A DNA stretch of 36,490 bases, from NCBI GenBank assembly GCA_022361215.1, contig JAKSBI010000846.1, positions 1 to 36,490 on the forward strand, given 5' to 3'. This document shows positions 1,721 to 23,111 of this stretch, in pieces. The stretch comes from Hyphomicrobiales bacterium. Lineage in GTDB: Bacteria; Pseudomonadota; Alphaproteobacteria; Rhizobiales; Methyloligellaceae. Numbering within the stretch: position 1 is the first letter of the stretch; every line of letters starts with the position of its first letter. Both the position numbers and the translations under genes were made by a program. The notes under the pieces are model-generated. The model was not told the DNA's origin and did not search any database. It worked only from the letters and a program-made list of their open reading frames with translations.

Positions 1721-1749
1721 TCCGGTTCCCATGCGGCGCTTGTCCGCCG

Positions 1750-1780: not shown

Positions 1781-1820
1781 TAGGGCCTAGGGCCAGCTTG
1801 GCGGGGGGATCTGAGGGGCC

Positions 1821-4121: not shown

Positions 4122-4537
4122 ACTCGCTGATCCTGAACGTGGCGACGCGGGTGCTGGTGGCGCTCATGCTGCTGTTCTCGGTCTACATGCTGCTGCGCGG
4201 CCACAACGAGCCGGGCGGCGGCTTCATCGGCGGGCTGATCGCGGCCATCGGCTTCGCGCTCTACGCCATCGCCCATGGCACCGCCGCGGCAAGGCGCGCC
4301 CTCAGGCTGGAGCCGCGCGTCATCGCCATGGCCGGGCTGGGCCTCGCGCTCCTGGCGGGGCTCGGGGCGGCACTCGCGGCCGAGCCGCTTTTCACCGGGC
4401 AGTGGTGGTTCTTCGGCGCCGAGGACGGCGACAAGGGCCTACCGATCAGCACGGTGCTGCTCTTCGACATCGGGGTCTACCTGGTCGTGGTCGGCGCGGT
4501 GCTCACCCTGGTGCTGGCGCTGGAAGAGGAGGCCTGA
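4118..4537 (+). CDS. mrpB: Mrp antiporter subunit B
   Basis: A 139-residue membrane protein with about four hydrophobic segments. The hallmark motif [14 protein letters not shown] at residues 28-41 is diagnostic of the MnhB/MrpB family, as is the later [15 protein letters not shown] near the C terminus. MrpB is an obligatory small subunit of the Mrp complex and supports assembly with the C-terminal part of MrpA. The ATG overlaps the mrpA stop by four bases, and mrpC starts two bases after this gene's stop. Nothing appears truncated. Confidence 0.95.
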
Positions 4538-4539
4538 CC

Positions 4540-4938
4540 ATGGAGACGGTGCTCGCGCTCCTCGTCGGCGTGCTCGTCGGCGCAAGCGTCTATCTGATGC
4601 TGGCGCGGAACATTCTGAGGTTCGTCTTCGGCCTCGTGCTGCTCGGCAACGCGGCCAACCTGACCATCTTCGCCGCCGGGCGCCTGACCCGCGCCGAGCC
4701 GCCGCTGGTGCCGGAAGGGCTCGCCGCCCCGCCCGAGCTGGTGGCCAACGCGCTGCCGCAGGCGCTGATCCTGACAGCCATCGTCATCGGCTTCGGCCTG
4801 CTCGCCTTCGCGCTGGCGCTGGTCTTTCGGAGCTATCAGGTCACCGGCACGCTGGACACCGATGCGCCGCGGGAGACCCGGCCCGGGGCGGATGCTCCTG
4901 CCGAGGCCGCACCGCAATCCGAGGCAGCCAAGCCATGA
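4540..4938 (+). CDS. mrpC: Mrp antiporter subunit C (NuoK-like)
   Basis: A 132-residue, three-helix NuoK-like subunit of the Mrp complex. Recognisable blocks are [17 protein letters not shown] (about residues 30-46) and [22 protein letters not shown] (about 73-94), both conserved in MnhC/MrpC. The Ala/Glu/Pro-rich hydrophilic tail from about residue 105 is not conserved in the family and is presumably cytoplasmic. The ATG at 4540 follows GAAGAGGAGG in the end of mrpB. The frame is open further upstream, but that stretch is the shadow of mrpB. The stop overlaps the mrpD start (ATGA). Confidence 0.95.
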
Positions 4939-6437
4939 GCTGGCTGCTCGCGCTCCCGATCGTGCTGCCGTTCGCGACGGCCGTGCTGACGTTCCTGCTG
5001 CGCTCGACGGGCTCGGCGGCGCGCTGGCTCAGCGTTGCCGGCTGCGCAGGCCTGCTCGCCGCGGCGACCGCCCTGATGGTCCAGGTCTGGCGCCACGGCG
5101 TCATCGCCGCTCAGATGGGCGACTGGCCGGCGCCCTTCGGCATCACGCTGGTGGCCGATCTCCTGAGCGCCGTCATGGTGGTCATCACGGCGATCACCGG
5201 TCTCGCCGTCGCGGTCTATGCGCTCGCCGACATCGACGAGCGGCGCGAGGCGCTCGGCTATCATGCCCTGTTCCAGACGCTGCTCGCCGGCGTCTGCGGC
5301 GCCTTCGTCACCGGCGACCTGTTCAACCTCTATGTCTGGTTCGAGGTCATGCTGATCGCCTCGTTCGGCCTGCTGGTGCTCGGCAACACCGAGGCGCAGC
5401 TCGATGGCGGCATCAAATACGTGGCCATCAACCTGGTCTCGACGGTCCTGTTCCTCTCCGGCATCGGCCTGCTCTACGGGCTCACCGGCACGCTGAACCT
5501 CGCCGACCTGCACGTCGCCGTGCAGGCGGTGGAGAACCAGGGCCTGCTCACCGTGGTCGCTTCGCTCTTCCTCGTCGCCTTCGGCATCAAGGCCGCCGTC
5601 TTCCCGCTGTTCTTCTGGCTGCCGGCCTCCTATCATACGCCGCCGGTGGCGGTGTCGGCGGTGTTCGCCGGGCTCTTGACCAAGGTCGGCGTCTACGCGC
5701 TCATTCGCATGTTCACCCTGGTCTTCACCCAGGATATCGGGCTCACTCACGGGCTGCTGCTGGCGGTGGCCGTGCTGACCATGGTGACCGGCGTCCTCGG
5801 GGCGGCGGCGCAGAGCGAGTTCCGCAAGATCCTGTCGTTCCACATCGTCAGCCAGATCGGCTACATGGTGCTGGGGCTCGCCCTCTACACGCCGCTGGCT
5901 CTGGTCGGCGCGGTCTTCTATCTGGTCCACCACATCATCGTGAAAGCGAACCTGTTCCTGGTCAGCGGCGTCGCGCGCCGCCTCACCGGCTCGTTCGAGC
6001 TGGCGGCCATCGGCGGGCTCTACAAGTCGAGCCCGCTGCTCGCCCTGCTCTTCCTGGTGCCGGCCTTCTCGCTGGCGGGCTTCCCGCCGCTCTCCGGCTT
6101 CTGGGCCAAGTTCCTGCTGATCAAGGCAAGCCTGGATCTGGGCGCCTATCTTGTCGCCGCGACCGCGCTGGTGGTCGGCCTACTCACGGTCTTCTCCATG
6201 ACCAAGATCTGGGCCGAGGCGTTCTGGAAGCCGCATCCGGAGGGCCACGCGCCCACGCTCGCCCTGGTGACGAGGCGCGAGCGCGCCGCGCTCCTGCTGC
6301 CGGTGGCGGCGCTCGCCACGCTGACGGTGGTCATCGGCCTCTTCCCCGAGCCCTTCGTCGGCTTCGCCGAGCGCGCGGCCGGACAGCTTCTCGACCCGGC
6401 GGACTATGTCCGCGCCGTGCTGGGACAGGCCCCATGA
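4935..6437 (+). CDS. mrpD: Mrp antiporter subunit D (NuoN/NuoM-like)
   Basis: A 500-residue membrane protein, the second proton-translocating module of the Mrp complex, homologous to NuoM/NuoN. E137 lies in [17 protein letters not shown] and K219 in [17 protein letters not shown]. Both match in position the Glu and Lys known to be essential in characterised MrpD proteins. Further conserved blocks are [21 protein letters not shown] and the [15 protein letters not shown] helix. About fourteen membrane segments are expected. It starts inside the mrpC stop and ends inside the mrpE start, each with an ATGA overlap. Confidence 0.95.
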
Positions 6438-6907
6438 ACGTCTTCGCCCTCAACACCATCCTGGCGTTCGGCTGGGCCGCGCTGGTCGGGCAGTTCACCC
6501 TGGCGAGCCTGCTGATCGGCTTCGGCGTCAGCTATTTCACCCTCTGGGTGGCGCGGCCGCTGTTCGGCGACACGACCTATTTCGAGCGGGTCTGGCGCGT
6601 TCTCCGCCTCGCCGTGCTGTTCGTCTACGAGCTGGTGATCTCCAGCCTGCGCGTGGTCTGGGACGTGATCACGCCGAGCCATCTGAGCCGGCCGGGCATC
6701 ATCGCCATGCCGCTCGACGCCAAGGGCGAGGGGGAGATCCTGCTGGTCGCCAGCCTGATCTCGCTGACGCCCGGGAGCCTGAGCCTGGACGTCTCGGCCG
6801 ACCGCAAGACGCTCTATGTCCACGCCATGTTCGTGGACGACCCCGAGGCGGTGCGCCAGGGGCTCAAGCAAGGCATGGAACGCCGCGTGATCGAGGCAAT
6901 GGAATGA
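6434..6907 (+). CDS. mrpE: Mrp antiporter subunit E
   Basis: A 157-residue MnhE/MrpE family protein: two or three N-terminal hydrophobic segments, then a soluble domain. The block [19 protein letters not shown] (around residues 103-121) with the following [14 protein letters not shown] is the family signature. MrpE is needed for normal assembly or activity of the complex but is not thought to carry ions itself. The start overlaps the mrpD stop and the stop overlaps the mrpF start by four bases. The order A-B-C-D-E-F-G is the canonical one. Confidence 0.93.
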
Positions 6908-7227
6908 GCTTCGCGAACGGATCGATACTGGACTGGGCCGTGAACATCACCTTCGCCCTGCTGATGCTGGCGATGGTTCTGGCCTTCCTGCGCCTCGCCC
7001 TTGGCCCGAGCCTGCCCGACCGCGTGGTGGCGCTCGACCTGATGACCGTGCTGGCCGTGGGCTTCAGCGCGCTCTTCGCCATCTCGGCCGACGAGCCCGC
7101 GTTCCTCGACGTGGCCATCGCGCTCGCCCTGGTGGCCTTCCTGGCGACCGTCGCGCTGGCGCGCTTCGCGGAGCGGCACAGGGCGCGCCATCCCGCACCT
7201 CCGCCGCCCGAGGGACCGGACCCATGA
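6904..7227 (+). CDS. mrpF: Mrp antiporter subunit F
   Basis: A 107-residue, three-helix MnhF/MrpF subunit. The conserved core LGPSLPDRVVALDLMTVLAVG (about residues 33-53) is the family's hallmark, followed by the third helix VAIALALVAFLATVALARF. The C-terminal HRARHPAPPPPEGPDP is a Pro-rich tail of no known role. MrpF is a small membrane subunit required for antiport by the complete complex. It overlaps mrpE and mrpG by four bases each. Confidence 0.93.
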   Translation: MSFANGSILDWAVNITFALLMLAMVLAFLRLALGPSLPDRVVALDLMTVLAVGFSALFAISADEPAFLDVAIALALVAFLATVALARFAERHRARHPAPPPPEGPDP

Positions 7228-7592
7228 CCGAGATCCTGACCGCGCTCCTCGTCGTCACCGGCGGCCTCTTCGCCGTGGCGGCCGCGCTCGGCGTGCTGCG
7301 GCTGCCGGACATCCTGATCCGCATGCACGCCTCGACCAAGGCCGGCACGCTGGGCTGCGGCCTGATCCTGGTGGCCGTGGCGGTGCATTTCGGCGAGACC
7401 GGGATCATCGCCCGGGCCGTGGCCGCCATCGTCTTCCTGATGCTGACGGCGCCCGTCGCCGCCCACATGATCGCCCGCGCCGCCTATCGCACCGGCGTGC
7501 CGTTGTGGAAAGGCATGGTGATCGACGAGTTCGCGCCGCCCCGGCCCGCGACGAAGGACGCGGCGGGGGAACGCCTCTCGGACGAGCCGTAG
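7224..7592 (+). CDS. mrpG: Mrp antiporter subunit G
   Basis: A 122-residue MnhG/MrpG subunit with three hydrophobic segments. The family motif GVLRLPDILIRMHASTKAG lies at about residues 23-41, and the third helix contains FLMLTAPVAAHMIARAAYRTG. It is the last gene of the operon. A 9-bp inverted repeat overlaps its stop codon and may close the transcript. The complete seven-gene set predicts a functional Mrp complex for pH and Na+/K+ homeostasis, with no broken subunit. Confidence 0.93.
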   Translation: MTEILTALLVVTGGLFAVAAALGVLRLPDILIRMHASTKAGTLGCGLILVAVAVHFGETGIIARAVAAIVFLMLTAPVAAHMIARAAYRTGVPLWKGMVIDEFAPPRPATKDAAGERLSDEP

Positions 7593-7610
7593 CGCTCGCC
7601 CGCTCGTCCG
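7579..7610 (+). terminator. Inverted repeat at the end of the Mrp operon
   Basis: CGGACGAGC (7579-7587) pairs perfectly with GCTCGTCCG (7602-7610) across the mrpG stop codon. There is no T run, so it is either a rho-independent-like or a processing/stability hairpin for the Mrp transcript. Confidence 0.4.
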
Positions 7611-8944: not shown

Positions 8945-9554
8945 TCGTCCTCGCCTGCCTGAGCCCCGTAGATAGATGCGTCGTCGCCGGACCGGTCCGG
9001 CCATCGCTGCCAAATTGCTCCAATTGGAACGGGATGTCCAAGGGCCGATCCGCCCGATCCGTCGTGAGCGCTGGATCGCACACCCTCGGGTCCATTCACC
9101 GGCTTAGAAATCAACAGCTTCCACAAAGAGACACCCTCCGCCGCAAAACAAAAGCCGTGTTGTCAGGCGTCACACTTCGCCAAGCCGCTGCCCGTTTCTT
9201 AATCACGTCCTCGTGTGATCTGCGAACGTTTTCGCCGCGCCCTCGTCTTTAGGGACAGGTTCCCGGGAGCGACGGGTCCCCGGGAATGACAGGACCTTGG
9301 GTGTGATGGCCATGCGACAGCGTCGTCGCTGGCCTTGGCGTAGGAGGGGCCGTTGCGCGATCAACGCGACGCGTGTGCCACCGATCTCGGCAATGCTCAT
9401 CGCGCGCAGACGGCCGCGCGGCGACGGCGCCAAGCCTCGCCAAACGCATCTCACCCCACAGAACACATGACAAGACGCCGGCGCTCCGGGGGAGCACGGA
9501 GCCGCTGCGCGACCGTCACCCGATCAGGCATCACCAACCAGCGAGGAGGAGGAC
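8945..9554. other. Spacer between divergent acyl-CoA lyase and redox cluster
   Basis: No credible gene was found in this 610-base stretch. Positions about 9247-9292 hold an extragenic element (GGTTCCCGGGAGCGACGGG... and CCCCGGGAATGACAGG), related in its CGGGAATGAC core to the element at position 1. Promoters of both the lyase and the redox cluster must lie here, but I could not place either with confidence. Confidence 0.5.
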
Positions 9555-10151
9555 ATGACGGACCAATCGAACTCGGAGTTTTGCTTCAGCCGCCGAATGG
9601 CACTGCAGGGGCTGGCCGGCGGCGCCATGGTCATGACGTTTGCGCCGGGCGATGTGGTCGAGGCCGCCACCGGGGCGGCCGACCTGGCCCGCGACGTCTA
9701 TCCGGAGCTGCTTGTCGCGAAGGCCTCTCAGCTTGCCGAGGGCGAGCCGCTGGCCTTCGCGTATCCGCTGAAGCAGCAGCCGAACCTGCTGGTCAGGCTC
9801 GGCGCCGAGGCGCGCCGCGGCGTCGGACCCGGTCGCGACATCGTCGCCTTCTCAACGCTTTGCCCGCACATGGGCGGTCCGCTGCGGGGCCGCTACCGCC
9901 ACGACACCAAGGCGCTCGGGCCCTGCCCGATGCACTTCTCGACCTTTGACCTCACCAAGGGCGGCATCCCCGTGCACGCGCAGTCGACGCAGAACCTGCC
10001 CCAGATCGTCCTGCGCCTCGACGGCGACGACATCGTCGCCATCGGCGTGATCGGGCTGATCTACGGCCAGCGCAACAATCTCGAAGGCGGTGCCTTTGCC
10101 GACGGCGCCCGCAAGCCGGCCGGCGCCGGCCGCCGGCTCATGCGCGGCTGA
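9555..10151 (+). CDS. Rieske iron-sulfur subunit, arsenite oxidase small-subunit (AioB) type
   Basis: A 198-residue protein with a twin-arginine signal (SRRMALQGLAGGAMVMTF, residues 12-29), so it is folded before export to the periplasm. The [2Fe-2S] ligands are visible: C103-P-H105 in CPHMGGPL and C124-P-M-H127 in CPMHFSTFD, followed by LTKGGIPVHAQSTQNLPQI as in AioB proteins. The Cys pair that makes the disulfide in many Rieske proteins is absent (Gly107 and Met126), as in some AioB proteins. In arsenite oxidase and iodate reductase this subunit passes electrons between the molybdenum subunit and a cytochrome. GAGGAGGA precedes the ATG. The molybdenum subunit gene follows after 11 bases. 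The real substrate of this enzyme is unknown, so no gene symbol is given. Confidence 0.9.
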   Translation: MTDQSNSEFCFSRRMALQGLAGGAMVMTFAPGDVVEAATGAADLARDVYPELLVAKASQLAEGEPLAFAYPLKQQPNLLVRLGAEARRGVGPGRDIVAFSTLCPHMGGPLRGRYRHDTKALGPCPMHFSTFDLTKGGIPVHAQSTQNLPQIVLRLDGDDIVAIGVIGLIYGQRNNLEGGAFADGARKPAGAGRRLMRG

Positions 10152-10162
10152 AGGAGGAGACC

Positions 10163-12775
10163 ATGACAGGACAACCCAAGAAGACCCGCCGCGAGTTCCT
10201 GACCGCGGCGCGGACCCCGTCGCTCGACACCGGCACCTACGACGTGCCGGTGGACGAGGTGCCGATCCCGCCCGCGGATGCGGACGTGCTGCCGACGGCC
10301 TGCGAATACTGCATCGTCGGATGCGCCTACAAGGTCTATCGCTGGCCGTACCACAAAGAGGGCGGCGCGGCGCCGAACGAGAACGCCTTCAAGGAGCAGT
10401 TCCCGACGGGGCCGATCTCGGGCAAATGGGTCAGCCCGAACATGCACAGCATCGTGCAGCACAAGGGCGAGCCCCATCACGTCGTGATCGTGCCGGACGG
10501 CGAGACGGCGGTGAACCGCAAGGGCAATCACTCGGTCCGGGGCGGCACGCTCGGGCTCAAGCCCTACAACCCCACACGCCCGACCGCGGAACGGCTGCAG
10601 ACCCCGATGGTCCGCTCACGCGGCATGCTGCACGCCATCTCCTGGGACGACGCCACGACGATCGCCGCCGAGCTCGGCCGCTATGCCATCGACAAATGGG
10701 GCGTCGAGGCCTGGGGCATCAAGTATTACTCCTACCAGTTCTGGGAGAACACTTACGCGCTGACCAAATGGGCCTATGGCGCCGTCGGCACGCCGGCGGG
10801 CGCCGAGCACGACAAGAACACCGCGGCGAACGACGCCACGGGCGTCGACGATGCCGGCGTCGACGGCTTCTCCTACGGCTACCCGGACGTGACGGACGCC
10901 GACGTCATCATGGTGTCGGGCTCCGACCCCTACGAGAACCACACCATCCTGTTCACGGAGTGGATCGCCCCGGGCGGCGCCAAGATCATCCAGGTCAATC
11001 CGCGCAAGAGCCCGACGGCGGCCTATGCGGAACGCACCGGCGGCCTGCACCTGCAGCTCACGCCCGGCACCGACAGCGTCCTCAACAACGCCATCGCCCG
11101 CTACATCGTCGAGAAGGGCTGGGAGGACCGCGAGTTCATTACCAGATACACGGTCACCGAAGAGGATCTGGCCAAGGAGACCTCCTGGCGCCGCAAGCGC
11201 TATGGCGGCCCGTTCGAGGCGTACAAGGCGTTCCTGCTGGCGGACGACGCCTACACGATCGAGAACGCGGCCAAGATCACCGGTGTGCCGGCCGAGAAGC
11301 TGATCCTCGCGGCCGAGATGCTGGCCAAGCCCCGCGGCACGCTCAGGCCGAAGGCGTCGTTCTTCCTAGAGAAGGGCAACTACTGGTCGTTCAACTTCCC
11401 CAACACCTGTTCCTACTCGGCACTTGGGCTCCTCAACGGCGCTTCGGGCCGTCCGGGCCGCATTCTCGGCCGTCTCGGCGGACACCAGCGCGGCATGATG
11501 AAGGGCGCCGGCTATCCGATGAAGAAGTCGACCGACCTGTTCGTCGACCCCATCACCGGCGAGAAGACCAAGCACAAGAAGCCGCTGCATTTCGACCGGC
11601 ACGCCATGGAGGGCAACCTCCGATACACCCATGTCATCGGCCACACCTGGGTGACGTCGATGTCGGCGGGCCAGGCGCTCAGGCAGAAGATCCACGCGCT
11701 CACGCGCGGTCATGAGAAGCAGGTCAGCAGCCTGAAGCGGGACGAAATCATCGTTCAGCTCAAGGCGCGCATGGACGCCGGCGGCATGGCGCTGGTGGTT
11801 CAGGAGACCTATCCGAACGATCTCACCGAATATGTCGACCTGGTCCTGCCCGCCGCCACCTGGGGCGAGACGGACCTGACCCGCGCGCAGGGCGAGCGCC
11901 GGCTCAGGATCTACTCCAAGTTCTACGACCCGCCGGGCTCGGCGAAGCCGGACTGGTGGATCGTCGGTCAGATCGCCACCAAGATGGGCTACAAGGGCTT
12001 CGCCTGGAAGGACGGCAACGAGGTCTTCGAAGAGGCTTCCAAGCGGTCGAAGGGCGGGCACTACGACTATACCAAGCTCATCGCGTTCGCCCGCTCCAAC
12101 GGCCTTTCCGCTCACGAGCAGCTCCGCGCGCTCTCGACCACCGGCATCCAGCTTCCCGCCCGCATCGTCGACGGCAAGCTGGTCGGCACGATCCGTCTGC
12201 ACGACAAGACCATCGAGGATCCGGAAAACCACAACTGGAACGTCTCCAAGCACAAGACGAAGTCGGGCAAGGCGATCTTCATGCGCGGCGACTGGCGCAT
12301 CGCGGAGCCCATCTTCGAGGCGTTCAAGCCGAAGGGCGATGAGCTCTGGGTCCTGAACGGCCGGATCAACCACATCTGGCAGACCATGTATGACGACCTG
12401 CGCAAGCCCTATATCCGCGAGCGCTGGCCGATGAACTGGCTGTTCATCAACCACGCGGACGCCAAGGCCCGCGGGATCGAGAACGGCGACCTGGTCCACG
12501 TCACCAACGACGCGGTCGTCGACCAGCTCGGCGGCACCTCGAAAGGCGTGCTGTCGCTCGTGGCCTATCTCACGGACGAGGTCGCGCCCGGCGTCACCTA
12601 CACCTACGCGTTCTATCCCGGGCAGAACTCCAACACCGTGGTGTCGGCGGTCACCGATCCCGTGACCGCTGTCTACAACTACAAGATCGGCAAGGGCCGG
12701 GTCGAGAAGGCGGGCGAAACGCCGCTGAAGAGCGTCGACGCCGCCATGTCCTTCATTCCACGCAGCATCGGATAA
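10163..12775 (+). CDS. Molybdopterin oxidoreductase, AioA/IdrA-like large subunit
   Basis: An 870-residue DMSO-reductase-family enzyme closest by eye to arsenite oxidase AioA. CEYCIVGC (C47, C50, C54) holds an iron-sulfur cluster, and Ser124 in GNHSVRGG stands where the fourth Cys would be, as expected for the [3Fe-4S] cluster of AioA. GNYWSFNFPNT, GRLGGHQRG and NGRINHIWQTMYDDL match AioA blocks. Of the AioA arsenite-pocket residues, equivalents of His195 (H216), Arg419 (R437) and His423 (H441) are present, but Glu203 is Asp (D224), and the surrounding NRPAYNS segment is not conserved. The N terminus has TRREFL without a hydrophobic stretch, so export probably depends on the partner's Tat signal. 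AAGGAGGAG precedes the ATG. It could oxidise or reduce an oxyanion, and arsenite specificity is not established. Confidence 0.88.
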   Translation: MTGQPKKTRREFLTAARTPSLDTGTYDVPVDEVPIPPADADVLPTACEYCIVGCAYKVYRWPYHKEGGAAPNENAFKEQFPTGPISGKWVSPNMHSIVQHKGEPHHVVIVPDGETAVNRKGNHSVRGGTLGLKPYNPTRPTAERLQTPMVRSRGMLHAISWDDATTIAAELGRYAIDKWGVEAWGIKYYSYQFWENTYALTKWAYGAVGTPAGAEHDKNTAANDATGVDDAGVDGFSYGYPDVTDADVIMVSGSDPYENHTILFTEWIAPGGAKIIQVNPRKSPTAAYAERTGGLHLQLTPGTDSVLNNAIARYIVEKGWEDREFITRYTVTEEDLAKETSWRRKRYGGPFEAYKAFLLADDAYTIENAAKITGVPAEKLILAAEMLAKPRGTLRPKASFFLEKGNYWSFNFPNTCSYSALGLLNGASGRPGRILGRLGGHQRGMMKGAGYPMKKSTDLFVDPITGEKTKHKKPLHFDRHAMEGNLRYTHVIGHTWVTSMSAGQALRQKIHALTRGHEKQVSSLKRDEIIVQLKARMDAGGMALVVQETYPNDLTEYVDLVLPAATWGETDLTRAQGERRLRIYSKFYDPPGSAKPDWWIVGQIATKMGYKGFAWKDGNEVFEEASKRSKGGHYDYTKLIAFARSNGLSAHEQLRALSTTGIQLPARIVDGKLVGTIRLHDKTIEDPENHNWNVSKHKTKSGKAIFMRGDWRIAEPIFEAFKPKGDELWVLNGRINHIWQTMYDDLRKPYIRERWPMNWLFINHADAKARGIENGDLVHVTNDAVVDQLGGTSKGVLSLVAYLTDEVAPGVTYTYAFYPGQNSNTVVSAVTDPVTAVYNYKIGKGRVEKAGETPLKSVDAAMSFIPRSIG

Positions 12776-12789
12776 GGGGAGCTTGCGCG

Positions 12790-13545
12790 ATGAGATTCGC
12801 ATCCATTCTCCTGGTCGGCACCGCATTTCTGGCGTTCGCGGGACCGGCGGCGGCTGAGTACACGTCGCCCAAACCGGACCTTCTTGCCCGCGGCCAGGAG
12901 CTCTACGCCCGCGAGTGCGCCGTCTGCCACGGCGTCAAGGGCGAGGGGGACGGACCCGGCGCGATCTATCTGTCCCAACGGCCGCGCAACCTGACGCTCG
13001 GCGTCTTCAAGATCCGGTCGACGCCGACCGGCGAGTTCCCGACGGCGAAGGACCTGTTCGAGACCATCACGCTCGGCATTGCAGGGTCCACGGGCGCGCA
13101 GATGCCGAGCTTTGCGGCCCTGTCGGAGACGGACCGCTGGGCCCTGGTCGAGGTCGTTCGCACCTTCGCCTGGATGGACGAGGAAGGCACGCCGATCAAG
13201 GTGCCGCCGCGGCCGAAGACCGCCAACCTGGAGCTTGGCCGCAAAGTCTATGAGCGGCTGCAATGCGCCAACTGCCACGGCGTCGAGGGCCATGGCGACG
13301 GCCCCTCCTCGCTGACCATGAAGGACGACGACCGGCGGCGCATCTTCGCCGCCAGCCTGTCGACCGGCCGCTTCAAGCGGGGCGATACGCCGGAGCAAAT
13401 CTGGACGCGCTTCTACACCGGTCTCGACGGCTCGCCGATGCCTGCCTACGCGGGCAAGGCCACCGATGACGAGCTGTGGGCCCTCACCGAATTCATCCTG
13501 TCCCTCAGAGCCGGAGCGACGGCTTCGAAGATGGAGAAAAAATAA
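12790..13545 (+). CDS. Periplasmic dihaem cytochrome c
   Basis: A 251-residue protein with a Sec signal peptide (cleavage expected after GPAAA, about residue 22) and two class I cytochrome c domains. Haem sites are C43-A-V-C-H47 and C159-A-N-C-H163, each followed by a G-x-G-D-G-P segment. Candidate distal Met ligands are M105 (GAQMPSF) and M217 (GSPMPAY). It is the natural electron partner of the molybdenum/Rieske enzyme encoded upstream, in the role taken by cytochrome c or azurin in arsenite oxidase. AAGGGGA lies 10 bases before the ATG. The TAA overlaps the next gene's ATG by one base (TAATG). Confidence 0.9.
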   Translation: MRFASILLVGTAFLAFAGPAAAEYTSPKPDLLARGQELYARECAVCHGVKGEGDGPGAIYLSQRPRNLTLGVFKIRSTPTGEFPTAKDLFETITLGIAGSTGAQMPSFAALSETDRWALVEVVRTFAWMDEEGTPIKVPPRPKTANLELGRKVYERLQCANCHGVEGHGDGPSSLTMKDDDRRRIFAASLSTGRFKRGDTPEQIWTRFYTGLDGSPMPAYAGKATDDELWALTEFILSLRAGATASKMEKK

Positions 13546-14306
13546 TGATCGACTCTCTCACCAGGCGCCAAGCTCTGCTTGCGGGCGGCGCCGTTCTTGC
13601 CCTGGGCGCGGCGGGGTGGCCGAGCCTCGGACGCGCTTATACGCCAGGCGACGTGACGGACGGGGGACGTCTGAAAGGCGTCCTCCGCTTCACCGGCGAG
13701 CCGCCCGCGGAAGACGCGATCTCGATCTCGAAGGACTCGCACATCTGCGGCCATGGCAACGTCAACCCCAACCCGCTCACGCGCGGCGCCGACGGGGCGC
13801 TGAAGGACGGCGTCGTTGCGCTCCGCAAGGTGGCGGCCGGCAAGCCTTGGGACAAGACGCTGACCGAGCCGAAGATCGTGCAGAAGAAGTGCGTGTTCCA
13901 CCCCTTCGTGCAGATCGCGCCGAAGGGATCGAAGCTCACCATCGTCAACGAGGACCCGCTGCTCCACAACATCCACGCCTACGAGCAGATCGGACGGGCG
14001 CGGCGCACCTTGTTCAACATCGCCCAGCCGGCCGCCGGCCAGACCGACGTCGCGACCCTCAAGATGCGGCGGGGCTCGGTGGTGGAGATCGACTGCGACG
14101 CCCACAACTGGATGTCGGCCTGGATCTATACGGCCGACCATCCCTACCTCGCCGCGACAGGGCCCGACGGCCGCTTCGATATCGGCGACGTGCCTCCGGG
14201 AAGCTACGAGCTCGTGATGTGGCATCCGCTTCTCGGCGAGGTCACGCGCGACGTGACGCTGGCCGCCGGCGAAACACTCGACCTATCCCTGGACATGAAA
14301 GCGTGA
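13545..14306 (+). CDS. Tat-exported cupredoxin-like protein
   Basis: A 253-residue protein with a twin-arginine signal (LTRRQALLAGGAVLALG, residues 5-21). The middle part has a plastocyanin-like fold pattern: DPLLHNIHAYEQ gives a His ligand, and CDAHNWM gives the Cys, His and Met of a possible type 1 copper site in C-x2-H-x2-M spacing. The C-terminal part (DGRFDIGDVPPGSYELVMWHP) looks like a small carboxypeptidase-regulatory beta-sandwich. Database entries of this type are often called methylamine utilisation protein without evidence. Translation is coupled to the cytochrome gene. A copper electron carrier for the same enzyme is the simplest role. Confidence 0.8.
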   Translation: MIDSLTRRQALLAGGAVLALGAAGWPSLGRAYTPGDVTDGGRLKGVLRFTGEPPAEDAISISKDSHICGHGNVNPNPLTRGADGALKDGVVALRKVAAGKPWDKTLTEPKIVQKKCVFHPFVQIAPKGSKLTIVNEDPLLHNIHAYEQIGRARRTLFNIAQPAAGQTDVATLKMRRGSVVEIDCDAHNWMSAWIYTADHPYLAATGPDGRFDIGDVPPGSYELVMWHPLLGEVTRDVTLAAGETLDLSLDMKA

Positions 14307-14317
14307 GGAGCGCGCCA

Positions 14318-15472
14318 ATGACCCGCATCGTTCGCAAGACAACTTTCGGCATCATCGCATTCGCGGCCCTCACGGCCCTGGCGGTGACGCCCTTTGCCAT
14401 CGCTCAGAACAAGGCGCACGAGCCGCTCGCCGCGCTGCCTCCTATGCCGATCCCCAAGGACAACCCGATGACGGAGGCGAATATCGCGCTGGGCAAGCAT
14501 CTGTTCTTCGATGCGCGCCTTTCGGGTGACGCATCGATCTCGTGTGCCGACTGTCACGACCCGAAGCTCGGCTGGGGCGACGGGTCGGATCTCTCCCGCG
14601 GCTACCCGGGCACCATGCACTGGCGGAACTCCCAGACCGTGGTCAATTCGGGCTATCTGACCAAGGGCTGGTTCTGGACCTCGTCCGCCGCCACGCTGGA
14701 GGCCCAGGCCCATTCGGCGATCGCAGGCGCGCTCGCCGGCAACCTGAAGAAGGCGCTGGCCGAGGAGCGCATGAAGCAGGTGCCGGAATATGTCCGCCTG
14801 TTCAAGGAGGTCTGGAACGCCGCGCCGAACTACGACCAGGCGCTGGCCTCGATCGCCGCCTATGAGCGCACCATCATCTCCGACGACAGCCCCTTCGACC
14901 GCTACATGCGCGGCGAGAAGAGCGCGCTTTCGGAAGCGGCGGTTCGCGGTATGGCGCTGTTCGAGGGCAAGGCCGGTTGTGCTGCATGCCATAGCGGTCC
15001 GTTGCTGACGGACCAGAAGTTCTACAACATCGGCCTGCCCACCAACCCGGCCTTCACCGAGACCATTCAGCGCCAGATCGCGTTCCGCGAGCGCATGCGC
15101 TCATCCGGGTTCGAGGAGAAGGACTACCTCCATCTGGATCGCGATCCGGGCCGCTATCGCAAGACCAAGAAGATCGAGGACATCGGCAAGTTTCGCACGC
15201 CGCCGCTTCGCTACATCAAATATACCGCGCCCTACATGCACAACGGCGTGTTCTTCGATCTGCGCGAGGTGGTGGAGTTCTACAACAAGGGCGGCGAGAG
15301 CGAGCCGTTCGGCAACAAGTCGGAGAAGATCAAGCCCTTGGGGCTGACGGAGGCCGAGATCACCGACCTTATCGCCTTCCTCGACAGCCTGTCCGGCAAG
15401 GAACTCGTGGTCGAGCGGCCCAAATCCCCACCCTATGGCTTGCTCAAGTTCCCGATGAAGGGACAGTGGTAG
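14318..15472 (+). CDS. Dihaem cytochrome c peroxidase / MauG-like protein
   Basis: A 384-residue protein of the bacterial cytochrome c peroxidase/MauG family. The N-terminal hydrophobic signal (GIIAFAALTALAVTPFAIAQ) implies periplasmic location. Two haem-binding sites are seen: C76-A-D-C-H80 with the following DPKLGWGDG, and C221-A-A-C-H225. KFRTPPLRYIKYTAPYMHNG near residue 295 is the family's C-terminal signature. Family members reduce H2O2 with electrons from cytochrome c or, like MauG, oxidise protein residues. Iodate reductase clusters (idrABP1P2) also carry such proteins next to an AioAB-like enzyme, where peroxide removal is proposed. GAGGAG precedes the ATG, 11 bases after the cupredoxin stop, so it is the last gene of the cluster. 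Confidence 0.9.
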   Translation: MTRIVRKTTFGIIAFAALTALAVTPFAIAQNKAHEPLAALPPMPIPKDNPMTEANIALGKHLFFDARLSGDASISCADCHDPKLGWGDGSDLSRGYPGTMHWRNSQTVVNSGYLTKGWFWTSSAATLEAQAHSAIAGALAGNLKKALAEERMKQVPEYVRLFKEVWNAAPNYDQALASIAAYERTIISDDSPFDRYMRGEKSALSEAAVRGMALFEGKAGCAACHSGPLLTDQKFYNIGLPTNPAFTETIQRQIAFRERMRSSGFEEKDYLHLDRDPGRYRKTKKIEDIGKFRTPPLRYIKYTAPYMHNGVFFDLREVVEFYNKGGESEPFGNKSEKIKPLGLTEAEITDLIAFLDSLSGKELVVERPKSPPYGLLKFPMKGQW

Positions 15473-16222: not shown

Positions 16223-17491
16223 TCACGCCTGCTGCAGAAGCGCCGCGACGTCCCGGCGCATGGCTGCGAGCGCCTTCTCCGGCGGCTCGCGCAGCGTGAT
16301 GACGCTCTGCAGGTGCCCGAAGATCACCTCGGTGATCTTCAGCGCATTCGGCCCGGGGAAGGTGTACCAGCCGGTCATGATCGGCACCTGCGCCAGACCG
16401 GCCTTCGCCTGCGGGTTCTTCGCATAGAAGTCCGACAGCCGGTCGACCGCCAGGGCGTTGCCGGGGACGGCGCCCGTGCGCTCGACGATGATGGATTGGC
16501 CGACCGGGCCGGTCGCGAACTTCATGAACGCCCATGCGGCCTTCTGCTGCTCCGAGCTGCCGCCCGTCAGGCTCAGGAAACCGCCGCCGACCGGCACCCG
16601 GCTGTCGGGCGACGGCGCCGGCAGCCGCACCGCGCCAAGCCGGAAGCGGTCGCCGATGGTCCGCTGGTAGTTGCCCAGGCGACGGGACGAGGTGAAGAAC
16701 ATACCGACGCCGCCGGAGACGAACATCTGGTCGGCCTGCTTGCGGGTCATGTCGACCTGGCCCGCCTTGCCGAACCCCTGAACGATCTCCATGGCCTTAC
16801 GGCCGGGGTCCCGATCGAACGCGATCTCCTTGTCGCCCTCGGACATCATGCGCCCGCCCAGAGAGAACAGCAGCGCCTGGAACATCCAGTTCCCGTCGGC
16901 CGTATAGTCGAAGAAGGAGCCCATCTTGCCGTCTCCGAGAGCGGACACCTTCGCGGCCGCGGCGACGACGGCGTCCCAGCTCCGGTTCAGCTCTTCGACC
17001 TCGACCTCGGCCTGCTCGAGCAGGTCCCGGTTGTAGAAGATCACCGGGTTCGAGATGGCCAGCGGCAGGCCCAACTGCTGCCCTTCGAGCTCGGCCATGC
17101 TCATCATCGCCTCGCCATAGCCCAGCGCGTCCCAGTTCTTTTCCGAGGCGATCAGGTCGTTCAAGGGGACCGCGGCCTTGCGCTCGGCCACCAGCCGAAG
17201 GCGGTTGTAGGACTGCACGGCCAGGTCCGGCGCACGCCCGGTGCGCAGATCGAGGACCGTACGCTGCAATTGATCGTCCCAGCTCTGCGCTGGCGCCTGC
17301 GTCTCCACGGCGATGTCCGGATGCGCCGTCTTGAAGGCATCGACGATGGCCTGGACCGTGGCCGGGAAACCTCCCCCTCCGCGGAAGGAAAGCCCGACGC
17401 GGCGGGCACTCTGCGCATGTGCGAAGCTGAGCCCGTAGGCCAGGTTCGCCATCGTGGCGGCTGACAATGCCAAAAAGGTTCGGCGCTTCAC
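16223..17491 (-). CDS. ABC transporter sugar-type substrate-binding protein (copy 1)
   Basis: A 422-residue family 1 (UgpB/MalE-like) extracellular solute-binding protein. The GTG at 17491 with AGGAGG upstream gives an N terminus KRRTFLALSAATMANLAYG, a twin-arginine-like signal ending near AHAQ. The fold's usual landmarks are seen: PDLAVQSYNRL, PLAISNPVIFYNRDLLEQA, and the C-terminal MKFATGPVGQSIIVERTG and PIMTGWYTFPGPNALKI blocks. The C-terminal half is clearly paralogous to the second binding protein at 31916-33184. No permease genes are adjacent; the nearest are at 23.1-24.9 kb. The divergent spacer to the phosphoesterase gene carries the palindrome described at 17606. Confidence 0.9.
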   Translation of the reverse strand: MKRRTFLALSAATMANLAYGLSFAHAQSARRVGLSFRGGGGFPATVQAIVDAFKTAHPDIAVETQAPAQSWDDQLQRTVLDLRTGRAPDLAVQSYNRLRLVAERKAAVPLNDLIASEKNWDALGYGEAMMSMAELEGQQLGLPLAISNPVIFYNRDLLEQAEVEVEELNRSWDAVVAAAAKVSALGDGKMGSFFDYTADGNWMFQALLFSLGGRMMSEGDKEIAFDRDPGRKAMEIVQGFGKAGQVDMTRKQADQMFVSGGVGMFFTSSRRLGNYQRTIGDRFRLGAVRLPAPSPDSRVPVGGGFLSLTGGSSEQQKAAWAFMKFATGPVGQSIIVERTGAVPGNALAVDRLSDFYAKNPQAKAGLAQVPIMTGWYTFPGPNALKITEVIFGHLQSVITLREPPEKALAAMRRDVAALLQQA

Positions 17492-17524
17492 GATATCCTC
17501 CTGAAACTGGGCAAGCGGTAGGTC

Positions 17525-17563
17525 GGGCTGTCGGCAGCCAAGCGTTCCCGGCACCGACAGCCC
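17525..17563 (-). other. 5-prime leader inverted repeat of binding protein 1
   Basis: GGGCTGTCGG (17525-17534) pairs perfectly with CCGACAGCCC (17554-17563), with a 19-base loop. It lies 33-72 bases upstream of the GTG of the binding-protein gene. It is either an untranslated-leader hairpin or an operator; no riboswitch class was recognised. Confidence 0.4.
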
Positions 17564-17605
17564 CGCCATATGCCCGAACAGTGTTTCAGATTTTTGACGT
17601 AGACA

Positions 17606-17620
17606 CGGAACATGGTTCCA
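17606..17620. promoter_or_regulatory. Putative RpiR-type operator, site 1
   Basis: CGGAAC-ATG-GTTCCA, a near-perfect 6-3-6 palindrome in the divergent spacer between binding protein 1 and phosphoesterase 1. The same form occurs at 28904 and 31711. A weaker copy, CCGAAC-AGT-GTTTCA, lies exactly 32 bases upstream at 17574-17588. Assignment to the RpiR regulator at 30829 is inference from co-occurrence. Confidence 0.55.
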
Positions 17621-17656
17621 GCCATGGTGCCACGCCACAGAACGGGGATTTCGCCG

Positions 17657-18511
17657 GTGCTGAAGCTCATACATCTCACGGACCTCCACTTCACGCCGCC
17701 GGGGGTCGATCACCTGGAATGCGAGCCGCGCCAGCGATTGGAACAGGCCATCGAGAGCATCAATGCCGAGCACGGCGATGCGGCCTTCGTGGTCATCACA
17801 GGGGATCTGGCGGCCCTGGGCCAAGCCGCGGCCTACGAAGACCTGAAGGACTGCCTGAGCGCCTTGCGCGTTCCCTACAGGCTGTGCCTTGGCAATGGCG
17901 ACCATCGCACGCGGTTCCGGGAGACGTTTCCCGAGATAGAGGTCGACGAGAACGGCTTCGTTCAGTCGGTGGTGGAGACGGCGGCCGGACGCCTGATCCT
18001 GCTGGATACGCTCTGCCAGGGCGTGCATTGGGGCGAGCTCTGCGCGCTTCGTCTCGCTTGGCTCTCCCGCCAGCTCGAGGCAAGCGGCAGCTCGCCGCTG
18101 TTCCTCTTCATGCACCACCCTCCCTTTCCCATAGGCATCGACCTCCTGGACGGCCTACGTCTCCGGGATGCGGATCGGCTGGCGGCTCTGCTGGAGGGCA
18201 GGACCGTGAGGCACATCTTCCTCGGCCACGCGCATCGTCCGGTGGCGGGATCCTGGCGTGGCATTCCTTTCTCGATCCTGCGCAGCACCGTCTCCCAGTT
18301 CGCGCTCCGCCTGGGCAACGCTCGGCCCGCAAGATGCTACGAGCCACCTTTCTATGCAGTTACTTTGTTGAGCAAGGATGACGTGATCGTGCATTTCCAC
18401 GATTACAGCTACGATGGGCCGGTGGTTGCATACGAGCCGGTCCCGGATATCGTGGTCGACGACGAAGCGACGGCGGCGGATTTTCAGAAGCAGAGAAAAA
18501 GTCCTCGTTAG
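17657..18511 (+). CDS. Calcineurin-like metallophosphoesterase, Icc/CpdA type
   Basis: A 284-residue cytoplasmic metallophosphoesterase of the class III cyclic-nucleotide/glycerophosphodiester phosphodiesterase group. Metal motifs in order: HLTDLHF (D9, H11), ITGDLA (D50), LGNGDHR (N80), FMHHPPF and LGHAHRP. The usual GNH[DE] reads GNGD, so the His next to the metal-ligand Asn is missing. The GTG at 17657 gives the typical family start and follows AACGGGGA by 8 bases. Frame-compatible ATGs at 17612 and 17624 would place the start in or beside the palindrome at 17606-17620. It is divergent from an ABC binding-protein gene; a second phosphoesterase heads the ABC operon at 26935. Confidence 0.8.
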   Translation: MLKLIHLTDLHFTPPGVDHLECEPRQRLEQAIESINAEHGDAAFVVITGDLAALGQAAAYEDLKDCLSALRVPYRLCLGNGDHRTRFRETFPEIEVDENGFVQSVVETAAGRLILLDTLCQGVHWGELCALRLAWLSRQLEASGSSPLFLFMHHPPFPIGIDLLDGLRLRDADRLAALLEGRTVRHIFLGHAHRPVAGSWRGIPFSILRSTVSQFALRLGNARPARCYEPPFYAVTLLSKDDVIVHFHDYSYDGPVVAYEPVPDIVVDDEATAADFQKQRKSPR

Positions 18512-19071
18512 GCCAAGCAGCACCAGCAATCGTATTAGTGCCGAAGTCACACCTCTAGCCATTCCATCACATCTTGTGAATGACTTTTAATCTACGATAC
18601 TCAATATTATACTATATTTTTCTCGACATGAGCATACATGGATCCATTAGCTGAATGGATGGGGTCAGCCGCACCAGCACCAAGGAAAATCTGCGACTGC
18701 CCAGCCGGCAGACTCGTTGACTTGCCAATGAAATCACGCCCTTCGACGCGGCGGATGGCGCCGCAGCGCTCTGCGCGCCGCCAAAAAAACAGTGCCCAAA
18801 CAGGCGCCAACCCGCCCCTCCTAATACATCGGCTTTAGACGCGAATATCCAACTTAGCTTAGACTTGACTATGACGATCCGCCGCTGTTAGGCTCTGCAA
18901 CAGAACTTTCAATTCTATGGAACAAAAGGGCGAGTTTTCAGGCGCGCGAGTGCTTGGAAAAGCCATGCCCGACTAAATCTGCCTGAACGTTCCAGCGAGA
19001 CAACCTGGCTCGAAGGAAGAACGTTTGCAGAGCACGTCTTCCTCGAGCACGTAACAAGCGGGAGACCGTTA
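18512..19071. other. Gene-poor spacer with an AT-rich island
   Basis: No convincing gene. Positions about 18588-18640 are strongly AT-rich (for example CTCAATATTATACTATATTTTTC) in contrast to the GC-rich surroundings. A 67-codon frame on the minus strand (18607-18810) has no ribosome site and no recognised motif. TTGACT at 18865-18870 could be a -35 box for the GntR gene, but the -10 box 17 bases later (TTAGGC) is poor. Confidence 0.4.
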
Positions 19072-19812
19072 GTGAGACATTTCGATCTGGGGGGCAACAA
19101 AACAGATCTTGCATACGAAAAAATCAAGGAACTGGTCGTCAACCTTCAAGTCAAGCCGGGAGAACAGCTACAGATCACAGAGCTATCCGAGCATCTGGCC
19201 GTCAGCGTCACGCCGGTGCGCGAAGCCCTGACCCGCCTTCATGCCGAGGGCTTGATCATGATGATCTCGAAGCGCGGCTTCTTCTCCAGAAACATCGACG
19301 TTCGCGATCTTCACGATCTCTACGAGCTGGCCTTCGTGATTCTCAAGCACTCGATCAAACGCGGCATCCAATCGTCCGAGTGCAACGGCATCTTCGAAGA
19401 GTTCGACTTCGACAGCGGCGGGTGGCCGCCCGACGCCCTGAACCCGAAGTCGCGCGTGCAGCGATACGCCAAGCAGCTCGAAACGTTCTATGAGAGCATC
19501 GTGCAGCTATCGGGCAACGCCGCGATGATCGCAGCCGTGAAGTCGTTCAACGACAGAAGCCATTTCATTCGGCTGGCGGACCTGAGCATCGAGGAGAATT
19601 TTCAGCTCATCCTCGCAGACATGGCGGAGCTTGTGACGCTTCTGGCCGCCAGAGACGCCAACGAGGCGGTTGCAAACCTGCGCCGGCAAACCAAGGCAAA
19701 GCTCATTCGCCTTCCGGCCCTGGCGCGGGATTGCCTGGCCAGCGCCTATCTGTCTCAGGTGTCGGACGACCCGGCCGCAGATCTTCCGGCGAGACCGGTC
19801 AATGTGAGCTAG
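19072..19812 (+). CDS. GntR-family transcriptional regulator
   Basis: A 246-residue regulator. The N-terminal winged helix is clear: LAYEKIKELVVNLQVKPGEQL (about residues 13-33), ITELSEHLAVSVTPVREAL (recognition helix) and LHAEGLIMMISKRGFFSRNI (wing). The C-terminal 150 residues are helical, as in the FCD effector-binding type, but lack the clear metal-site His pattern I would expect, so the ligand class is open. It starts with GTG at 19072 after GCGGGAGA. It is followed by a hairpin and then an aminotransferase and CDP-alcohol phosphatidyltransferase pair, which it may control. Confidence 0.85.
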   Translation: MRHFDLGGNKTDLAYEKIKELVVNLQVKPGEQLQITELSEHLAVSVTPVREALTRLHAEGLIMMISKRGFFSRNIDVRDLHDLYELAFVILKHSIKRGIQSSECNGIFEEFDFDSGGWPPDALNPKSRVQRYAKQLETFYESIVQLSGNAAMIAAVKSFNDRSHFIRLADLSIEENFQLILADMAELVTLLAARDANEAVANLRRQTKAKLIRLPALARDCLASAYLSQVSDDPAADLPARPVNVS

Positions 19813-20198
19813 GCGGATCGCTCGACTCAGTCGTCGCGAGGGCGGTTCTCGACCGCCCTCGTGCCGTCAAGACCGGGACAGCCACCGAAGCGAAGAACAT
19901 TATATCGATAAAAATACCCGAATAAATACATATTGAAATAGATTCTTCAACTTATACACTTGTTTTTGCGTTCGATTATCAGTATTCGGAGCAAAATTTG
20001 AGATAGCCGCAAGCAAATCGAAGATGCCGGAACGGGCGTCGTCGCCCCCCTGACGGAAATCGGGGCCGTGCGTCCCGGGCGTCGGACGCGACGCAATCGC
20101 CGAAGACCAGGGCTCGCCCCGGCACAGGCAGCAGGAACGGCACCTCGTGCTGCCGGGCCGAGGCATCTCGAAGAGCAGCCGGTTACGGGAGACACATC
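19813..20198. other. Spacer with AT-rich island upstream of the aminotransferase
   Basis: This 386-base gap has the GntR hairpin at its left end and a strongly AT-rich segment at about 19895-19985 (ATTATATCGATAAAAATAC and AAATACATATTGAAATAG). The GC-rich remainder (about 20010-20190) shows short protein-like minus-strand frames, but nothing I can identify. The promoter of the aminotransferase gene probably lies here. Confidence 0.4.
19837..19861 (+). terminator. Terminator-like hairpin after the GntR gene
   Basis: CGAGGGCGGT (19837-19846) pairs perfectly with ACCGCCCTCG (19852-19861) around a 5-base loop, 25 bases after the stop codon. The stem is strong, but no T run follows. Confidence 0.55.
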
Positions 20199-21443
20199 AT
20201 GCTGGCCCAACGAATGTCCTTGCTGTCCGGCTCAGGCACGGCCGCGGCGCGCGAAGCAACCAAGGCGGCCGCTGCGGCCGGCCGCCAGATCATCGACCTC
20301 GCGACCGGCGAGGTCGCATCCCCGCCGCCGCCGACGGTCCGGTCGGGCGCGATCGCGGCAGTAGAGGACGGCAGGAACCGCTATACGGAGTCCATCGGCA
20401 TCCGGCCTCTGCGCGAGGCGGTCGCAGGCAAGATCTCCGTGGAGACCGGCCAGCCCTGGGAGGCGGACGAGATTGCGATCACGGCCGGCGCGAAGCAGGG
20501 ACTCCTGGACGCCGCCCTCGCGCTGCTGAACCCCGGAGACGAGGTCATTATCGTGCAGCCCTGCTGGCCGACCTTCCCGGCGCAGGTGCTGCTGGCCGGG
20601 GCGAAGCCCGTCTTCGTCCAGGCCGAGGCGCCCACATACGTGCCAAGACTGGGCGCCATTCGCGCGGCGGTCACGCCATCGACCAAAGCGATCGTCGTGA
20701 ACTCGCCCAACAACCCGACCGGCGCCGTGTACGACCGCACGACGCTGTTCGATATTGCCGATCTGGCCGTAACCTACGACCTCTGGATCATCTCCGACGA
20801 ATGCTATTCGGGGTTCGTCTTCACGGGCCAGCAGCATCAGTCCATGGCAAGCGTTCATCCCGGTGCGCGATCCCGCACCGTCGTCGTCAATGCGTTCTCC
20901 AAGCAGCTTGCCATGACGGGCTGGCGGCTTGGATATCTTGCCGCCCCGCGAGAGCTGATTGCCGCCTCGAAGACGCTTCAGAGCCACACCACGTCGAACC
21001 CGAACGTGATCGCGCAATATGCCGCCCTGCATCATCTCCAGACCGGGGACGGCAGCTTCGAGCACGAGATGCATGCGATGGTGAATGCCAACAGGGCGGC
21101 CGGGCTGAAGATCCTGTCCGGGCTGGCCGTCGCGCCGCCACCGCCGGCGCAGGGCACGTTCTTCTTCTACCTGGATCTGTCGTCTTTGCTGGCCGCCCTG
21201 TCGCGGGACGGCACCGCCGCGACCGGCGACGACATATCCCGCATCCTTCTGGAGCAGGCCGATGTCGGCAGCGTCGCCGGCGGCAGCTTCGGCGATCCCA
21301 ACGGCCTGCGCCTGTCGTTCGGGGTTCCGCGCGACCAGCTCGAGCCCGGCCTGACGCGCGTGGTCGAGACGCTGAACGCCCTGGACGGAGACCGGACCGC
21401 GGCCTGCTGTGCTCCGCAACCGGAGCCGATCGCCCAGCACTGA
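20199..21443 (+). CDS. PLP-dependent class I/II aminotransferase
   Basis: A 414-residue fold-type I aminotransferase (AspC/AAT-I class). PLP contacts are intact: N171-N-P-T-G in NSPNNPTGAVY, D200 in IISDECYSG, the Schiff-base K235 in NAFSKQLAMTGWRLGY, and the C-terminal LRLSFGVPRD Arg for the substrate carboxylate. Family members convert amino acids to keto acids, and this gene's amino donor is not predictable. ACGGGAGA precedes the ATG. The CDP-alcohol phosphatidyltransferase gene follows after 136 bases on the same strand. That pairing, under a neighbouring GntR gene, hints at making or remodelling an amino-alcohol head group, which is inference only. Confidence 0.88.
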   Translation: MLAQRMSLLSGSGTAAAREATKAAAAAGRQIIDLATGEVASPPPPTVRSGAIAAVEDGRNRYTESIGIRPLREAVAGKISVETGQPWEADEIAITAGAKQGLLDAALALLNPGDEVIIVQPCWPTFPAQVLLAGAKPVFVQAEAPTYVPRLGAIRAAVTPSTKAIVVNSPNNPTGAVYDRTTLFDIADLAVTYDLWIISDECYSGFVFTGQQHQSMASVHPGARSRTVVVNAFSKQLAMTGWRLGYLAAPRELIAASKTLQSHTTSNPNVIAQYAALHHLQTGDGSFEHEMHAMVNANRAAGLKILSGLAVAPPPPAQGTFFFYLDLSSLLAALSRDGTAATGDDISRILLEQADVGSVAGGSFGDPNGLRLSFGVPRDQLEPGLTRVVETLNALDGDRTAACCAPQPEPIAQH

Positions 21444-21463
21444 GGCGGTCCGGCGTCCAGGGC

Positions 21464-21526
21464 TTGCCGGCGCGGCGCCATGGGAGGCGAGGAGCTGCGT
21501 CCCGAGGCTCCGAACCGCGCCGGCAA
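21464..21526 (+). other. Long-range inverted repeat between the two genes
   Basis: TTGCCGGCGCGG (21464-21475) pairs perfectly with CCGCGCCGGCAA (21515-21526), a 12-bp stem with a 39-base loop. It lies in the spacer between the aminotransferase and the phosphatidyltransferase gene. It may attenuate or stabilise the transcript. Confidence 0.4.
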
Positions 21527-21579
21527 CCCAGGCGCGCGCCACGGATCCGACGACGCAATCCCGGCAAGGAGACCAGTCC

Positions 21580-22200: not shown

Positions 22201-22207
22201 GTCGGAT

Positions 22208-23086: not shown

Positions 23087-23111
23087 CCGGCTCGTCACGG
23101 CCGCAGCGCCG

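Follow-up and report, generated by a model that had tools for sequence, protein, structure and literature searches.

The conversion of iodate to iodide drives marine iodine chemistry, and IdrA is its metagenome marker gene. A role of IdrA in iodate reduction was proven by a knockout in Denitromonas IR-12 (PMC8692401; also stated in PMC11445184), and in an aerobic alphaproteobacterium, IdrA was found in a gel band active on iodate (PMC11445184). The published IdrA profile is used with a threshold score of at least 640 (PMC8692401). An unassigned clade next to IdrA, with members in Halorubrum and Dehalococcoidia, was reported to lack peroxidases (Reyes-Umana et al. 2021).

The window analysed here, i.e., the whole stretch of 36,490 nucleotides of contig JAKSBI010000846.1 from a Hyphomicrobiales bacterium, contains five intact ORFs on the forward strand (positions 9555–15472), B, A, C, Cu and P. 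This cluster resembles the Idr systems (Denitromonas IR-12, Pseudomonas SCT, Roseovarius azorensis) in its heterodimer of a Rieske and a Mo/[3Fe–4S] subunit with a Tat leader on B only, in its Idr-type substrate loop, GHQR and [3Fe–4S] cysteine motifs, and in its IdrP1-type peroxidase, which is lacking in three relatives. Relatives of its cupredoxin and dihaem cytochrome are also found in many idr neighbourhoods. However, A lies outside the Idr clade, with 41–49% identity to Idr, and the gene order is B-A-C-Cu-P instead of P2-P1-B-A. The window cluster has one peroxidase gene, placed after Cu, and no P2, which does not match the two-peroxidase idrABP1P2 synteny. The clade to which A belongs is further distinguished by a fixed dihaem C and Cu, by an ECF sigma/anti-sigma pair in the relatives, by the lack of a HEAT-repeat gene after A and by an RR motif on A. 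The clade from Halorubrum and Dehalococcoidia also lies outside the Idr clade, and it differs from the window's clade in its reported lack of peroxidases.

With the arsenite oxidase AioBA, the cluster shares the subunit plan, the [3Fe–4S] cysteine motif, the catalytic His/Arg/His positions and a cytochrome c or blue copper protein as partner. In contrast, A shows 29–37% identity to AioA and has lost its substrate loop and GHQE motif, and the cluster lacks aioXSR and includes a peroxidase gene; a separate canonical AioBA is present in the same genome. A sequence-only reading had suggested that the cluster mixes Aio and Idr features and matches neither. The position of A outside both agrees with this, but the features thought foreign to Idr are not, as P is IdrP1 and homologues of Cu and C occur beside idrP2P1BA.

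Gene anatomy and export

The gaps between B-A, A-C, C-Cu and Cu-P are 11, 14, −1 and 11 bases, respectively (Table 1), and the start of P was set at ATG 14318, with GTG 14303 as a possible alternative. B exceeded the cut-off of TIGR02694 (127.5 vs. 96 bits), matched Pfam Rieske, and has a Tat-type leader, FSRRMALQG, and the cluster motif CPHMGG...CPMH. A exceeded the equivalog cut-off of TIGR02693 (435.7 vs. 359 bits) and passed Pfam Rieske_3, Molybdopterin and Molydop_binding. The export signals were judged by eye, without a signal-peptide program, as RR-type on B and Cu and Sec-type on C and P, with none on A. The cluster is flanked by a RipC/CitE-like lyase gene (opposite strand, upstream side) and a methyltransferase gene, and neither aioXSR nor other arsenic genes were found beside it. 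The sequence-only reading of five close genes on one strand, all exported (two Tat, two Sec, A leaderless) and free of arsenic genes, is therefore confirmed in its coordinates and gaps and agrees with the leaders and the flanks.

Farther away in the window, Mrp/Mnh-type Na+/H+ antiporter genes (1–7600) lie upstream and UgpABC-like ABC transporter genes (16226–26094) downstream, both probably unrelated neighbours. An MFS transporter gene at 27405–28670 (−) gave a sub-threshold match to ArsK, an arsenite efflux protein (205 bits vs. a cut-off of 400).

Table 1. Positions of the cluster genes and of motifs in A, numbered from the first letter of the window.
Feature	Position	Strand	Basis or remark
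RBS-like purine-rich stretch GCGAGGAGGAGGAC	9541..9554	+	Directly 5' of B; read in sequence
B, Rieske [2Fe–2S] small subunit	9555..10151	+	TIGR02694, Pfam Rieske; kept in 10/10 loci
A, 870-aa molybdopterin/[3Fe–4S] large subunit	10163..12775	+	TIGR02693, Pfam, trees
TRREFL motif near the N-terminus of A	10184..10201	+	Twin-arginine-like, without hydrophobic core
[3Fe–4S] cysteine motif CEYCIVGC of A (C47, C50, C54)	10301..10324	+	
Substrate loop of A, HDKNTAANDATGVDDAG, residues 216–232	10808..10858	+	Idr-type, in place of AioA HNRPAYNSE
R437-LGG-H441-Q-R443 of A	11471..11491	+	GHQR as in Idr, vs. GHQE of AioA
C, dihaem c-type cytochrome	12790..13545	+	Pfam Cytochrom_C, two CxxCH
Cu, cupredoxin-fold protein	13545..14306	+	AlphaFold, Foldseek
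P, dihaem cytochrome c peroxidase, IdrP1 orthologue	14318..15472	+	Pfam CCP_MauG, tree with IdrP1 and IdrP2

Lineage and active site of the large subunit

Scanning 84,980 species genomes yielded 28 loci, of which nine grouped with the window. The identity of A to that of the window is 89% in Pelagibius sp. Alg239-R121 and an uncultured Kiloniellaceae genome, 74% in Minwuiaceae, and 60–64% in genomes labelled Proteobacteria, Hyphomicrobiales, Geminicoccaceae, Alphaproteobacteria and Granulosicoccaceae. The Granulosicoccaceae member is a gammaproteobacterium by its title, making transfer between classes likely. Among a spread sample of 385 alphaproteobacterial genomes, the clade type was found in the window's own genome only, and Idr-type proteins were found in ten others. 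The cluster is rare but conserved in bacteria.

Trees of A were built with the AioA of NT-26 and HB8 as references and with Idr sequences recognised by the published idrABP1P2 neighbourhood (PMC8692401). The ten A sequences (window and nine relatives) are monophyletic with full support and sister to all idrP2P1BA-locus sequences plus a peroxidase-free group (that group 100/100). AioA, including NT-26 and HB8, is separated from the A clade at 100/100, and a constraint joining the A clade to the Azonexus Idr group was rejected (p-AU 0.004). The earlier claim that A belongs to neither the AioA nor the Idr clade is thus upheld, with Idr defined by neighbourhood and with the IdrA of Denitromonas IR-12 and Pseudomonas SCT outside the trees. 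The mean identity of A is 68% within the clade, 45% to Idr and 32% to AioA. The identity to Idr is just under the minimum inside Idr, 47%, so Idr could equally be defined broadly, with the clade as its deepest branch. Judged by sequence, the A clade is the nearest known relative of the iodate reductases and not one of them.

Two other lineages appeared on the Idr side. The BA pair of an Acidimicrobiia genome (L075, 9435–12529), which has no adjoining peroxidase, falls outside Idr and also outside the window's clade, and it is a likelier member of the Halorubrum/Dehalococcoidia clade than the window's clade is. The peroxidase-free clade (L073, L074, L076–L082, L088; Sulfurimonas, Thiomargarita, Alteromonadaceae and others) has B-A, with A of about 950–1000 aa, followed by two further proteins, one small and secreted and the other porin-like (378 aa in L080); a description of it was not found in the literature consulted.

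When A is aligned with AioA, the substrate residues of the latter correspond to H216, D224 (where AioA has Glu), R437 and H441. This assignment presumes the alignment to NT-26 AioA together with general knowledge of the A. faecalis structure, and numbered arsenite-binding residues were not found in the literature consulted. An AlphaFold model of A, made from ten sequences, had a pLDDT of 50 and was discarded. The His, Arg and His positions are conserved across the A clade, Idr and AioA. In the A clade, HDKxTxxND replaces the AioA loop HNRPAYNSE, and GHQR replaces GHQE; the two AioA forms occur in 16 of 16 AioA and in none of the ten A sequences. Of 32 sequences on the Idr side, 31 share the GHQR state. 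The window loop HDKNTAANDATGVDDAG nearly equals the Idr-type loops of Azonexus (HDKCSATNDATGLDDAG) and Thiothrix. Azonexus hydrophilus NCP973 may be a proven iodate reducer, but confirmation of this was not found in the literature consulted. It is chiefly on account of the Idr-type loop and GHQR that A is expected to share the chemistry of Idr and not to act on arsenic or antimony. The loop argues for a halogen oxyanion, iodine being among the substrates guessed earlier, and against arsenic as well as antimony, another of those guesses.

These data bear on the proposal that BA is an ordinary arsenite oxidase in an unusual operon. Passing the TIGR02693 and TIGR02694 equivalog cut-offs would agree with it, but an Azonexus Idr-type protein bears the same product name, so the name does not discriminate; TIGR02693 cannot tell AioA apart from Idr or from the sister lineage of Idr. 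Idr-type proteins are annotated as 'arsenate reductase (azurin)', as seen at L009 (6977–9655). The position of A outside the AioA clade, the loss of the AioA loop and GHQE, the lack of aioXSR nearby and the canonical AioBA on another contig of the same genome all disfavour this proposal, as does every sequence test made, and it is highly improbable.

All ten members of the A clade have an N-terminal RR motif, in most of them of the SRRxxL type, and after it A(A/Q)R(T/S)P(S/T), with no hydrophobic core. The IdrA and AioA sequences used for comparison do not have this motif, which may represent a vestigial Tat leader or else a chaperone site; a comparison of it with NarG was not found in the literature consulted. 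The motif, several clade-specific residues in A, the separate position of the clade in the trees and its coexistence with Idr and Aio in the same genomes would fit a different oxyanion (selenium, antimony, bromine or chlorine) and a substrate class of its own, in line with the sequence-only reading. However, the first-shell loop residues are inside the Idr-type range, and the identity to Idr is little under the Idr minimum, leaving a separate substrate class quite unlikely.

Partner genes, regulation and host genomes

The order B-A-C-Cu is conserved in ten of ten loci, and its recurrence in the nine loci other than the window argues that the cluster is not a chance arrangement. P follows Cu in six loci (window, L061, L063, L066, L068 and L069). 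In L062, L064 and L065, Cu is instead followed by CtaG/Cox11, DUF4382, CcoN, a FixO fusion, DsbD_2 and a P-type ATPase (Pfam run on L064), which form a cbb3-oxidase module; the fusion partner of FixO in these three is a dihaem C homologue. The L067 locus ends in Cu. No IdrP1-like protein at E ≤ 1e-40 was found in the genomes of L062, L064, L065 and L067, and P2 is absent from all ten loci. The expectation that all five genes stay together in relatives thus holds for B-A-C-Cu but fails for P, which is kept in six of the nine testable loci. P and the cbb3 module thus substitute for one another. As each accepts electrons and reduces an oxygen species, the two may serve either to remove by-products or as electron acceptors.

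P has the haem motifs CADCH (14543) and CAACH (14978) and contains TAPYMHNG. A tree built from 53 dihaem proteins separates P1 from P2 at 100%, and P falls in the IdrP1 group at 100%, where the P sequences of the clade join (99%) at the base of P1. By this phylogeny, P is an IdrP1 orthologue. MauG and MbnH belong to the same CCP_MauG superfamily; however, P missed both curated cut-offs by far (MauG, TIGR03791, 224 vs. 444; MbnH, TIGR04039, 228 vs. 363), keeps the TAPYMHNG methionine as in IdrP1, and has neither methylamine dehydrogenase nor an MbnP partner nearby. Among relatives with solved structures, cytochrome c peroxidases rank first and MauG later. The label 'MauG-like' given to P earlier is therefore replaced by cytochrome c peroxidase/IdrP1, and MauG-like protein modification as its role was rejected on scores and phylogeny.

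The haem motifs of C (CAVCH at 12916, CANCH at 13264) are kept in all ten loci. No Pfam cupredoxin model matched Cu, and its AlphaFold model (pLDDT 89) gave a Foldseek probability of 1.00 to purple cupredoxin, amicyanin and plastocyanin. The predicted ligands H141, C184, H187 and M190 (H/C/H/M) are invariant in 13 relatives. Cu also has a C-terminal carboxypeptidase-regulatory-like domain, and its leader is Tat-type in the window. Relatives of Cu occur near ordinary idr clusters in eleven loci, immediately 5' of peroxidase genes in L057, L070, L072 and L084, and relatives of C occur in six idr neighbourhoods. A cytochrome-Cu pair without BA is present in L121, and a Cu relative lies near cbb3/SCO/Sox genes on S. 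meliloti pSymA (L120). These contexts indicate that the cytochrome-cupredoxin pair is a reusable electron-transfer module and not the hallmark of a new substrate. Separately, bd-type-oxidase-like subunit genes, identified by eye, were seen near idr clusters in L046, L051, L056, L057 and L083, hinting at terminal oxidases as Idr partners; in four of these five, a dihaem cytochrome carrying an additional C-terminal domain also lies near idr.

The main rival explanation starts from these partners. BA would oxidise a periplasmic donor (iodide, arsenite, antimonite or other) and pass electrons to Cu and C and then to a cbb3-type oxidase, or to P as a sink, on the model of arsenite oxidase, which passes electrons via cytochrome c or azurin. 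The clusters of L062, L064 and L065 run straight into the cbb3 module, Cu relatives occur near cbb3/SCO genes and in a pair lacking BA, and AioA, the other sister branch, is an oxidase, all of which would fit. However, the loop and GHQR of A are Idr-type, more than half of the clade has an IdrP1-type peroxidase and no linked oxidase, and a terminal oxidase could as well remove O2 or protect the system. This oxidising role is possible but on balance somewhat unlikely.

In nine of nine relatives, the genes directly upstream of the cluster code for an ECF sigma factor and an anti-sigma factor of the zf-HC2 type (Pfam run on L061); they lie on the opposite strand in L065 and in two copies in L066. 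The pair is absent at the window cluster, where the RipC/CitE-like lyase gene stands, and it is probably the regulator of the relatives' clusters. Contig C470 of the window's genome encodes an anti-sigma homologue (E 1.5e-49, 38%) with a sigma factor, beside other genes; its position there leaves a link to the window cluster unproven, and it was set aside as a dedicated regulator. A defence against hypochlorous acid is under ECF sigma/anti-sigma control, in which the anti-sigma factor, NrsF, is of a different type (PMC8315932). This precedent makes a halogen-stress signal plausible and no more.

The window's genome contains three separate systems: the window cluster, an idrP2-P1-B-A locus followed by a HEAT-repeat gene (contig C152, L043, 2041–9412), and canonical aioBA (contig C141, L044, 1845–4979). 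The genome was assembled as a fragmented bin, in which contamination amounts to 6.2%. Bin contamination as the cause of the three paralogues would be unlikely, as GC and tetranucleotide composition agree across the three contigs, and the related genome G509 also has all three kinds. Idr-type A is present in three of the ten host genomes (the window's, G508 and G509), and the other seven, including the Pelagibius isolate (G502), have only the clade's A at E ≤ 1e-40. The coexistence with Idr suggests a role distinct in substrate, affinity or direction, though the three genomes are closely related. As a side observation, a HEAT-repeat protein is encoded directly after the large subunit in L046 (6771–8969, −) and in 14 further idr loci, i.e., in most alphaproteobacterial idr clusters, and it is absent from the window's clade.

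Proposed function and its meaning

The anatomy, lineage, conserved neighbours and active-site type of the cluster are established at the level of sequence. The cluster is genuine and conserved and forms a separate lineage beside iodate reductase, with very good support for both lineage and anatomy. As a whole, the explanation that we narrowly favour is that of a deep sister of iodate reductase, most likely a reducer of halogen oxyanions (iodate first) with C, Cu and P as partners. The best single function would be the reduction of iodate or another halogen oxyanion, a substrate and direction in which our confidence is about even. In support, the A clade is sister to Idr-type A, with AioA apart, its substrate loop and GHQR are Idr-type, P is in the IdrP1 group, relatives of Cu and C occur in idr neighbourhoods, the action of IdrA on iodate is proven, and the ECF control of hypochlorous-acid defence offers a precedent. 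Against it, Idr-type A is also present in three of the ten genomes, so the clade copy may do something else; the cbb3 module in three relatives would fit an oxidising enzyme at least as well; and P2, present in every published Idr cluster, is absent, with four of the ten genomes lacking a close IdrP relative.

For the electron path and the role of P in such a reductase, we infer the following. A and B would form a periplasmic heterodimer exported via the Tat leader of B, with a Mo-bisMGD site and a [3Fe–4S] cluster in A and the Rieske cluster in B, and C and Cu would link this dimer to the respiratory chain as electron carriers. At low oxygen, electrons would flow from bc1 to C/Cu, the Rieske cluster, the [3Fe–4S] cluster, Mo and finally the oxyanion. 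P, as an IdrP1-type peroxidase, would remove H2O2 or related oxidants arising during the reduction, and relatives without P have a cbb3-type oxidase module in its place. A third enzyme of the Aio/Idr group with a physiology of its own, in which an Idr-type site is run oxidatively (e.g., on iodide) with the dihaem cytochrome and cupredoxin leading to a dedicated cbb3 oxidase or peroxidase, is conceivable but rather unlikely.

As a sister lineage with the same active-site type and another gene set, the clade bears on where the line of the IdrA marker should be drawn, and also on the divergence of arsenite-oxidase-type and iodate-reductase-type enzymes. It further shows that the partners, i.e., P1, cupredoxin, dihaem cytochrome and cbb3 oxidase, are exchangeable. 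The cultured marine Pelagibius isolate has this cluster and no other AioA or IdrA, making both the substrate and the direction of the reaction directly testable.
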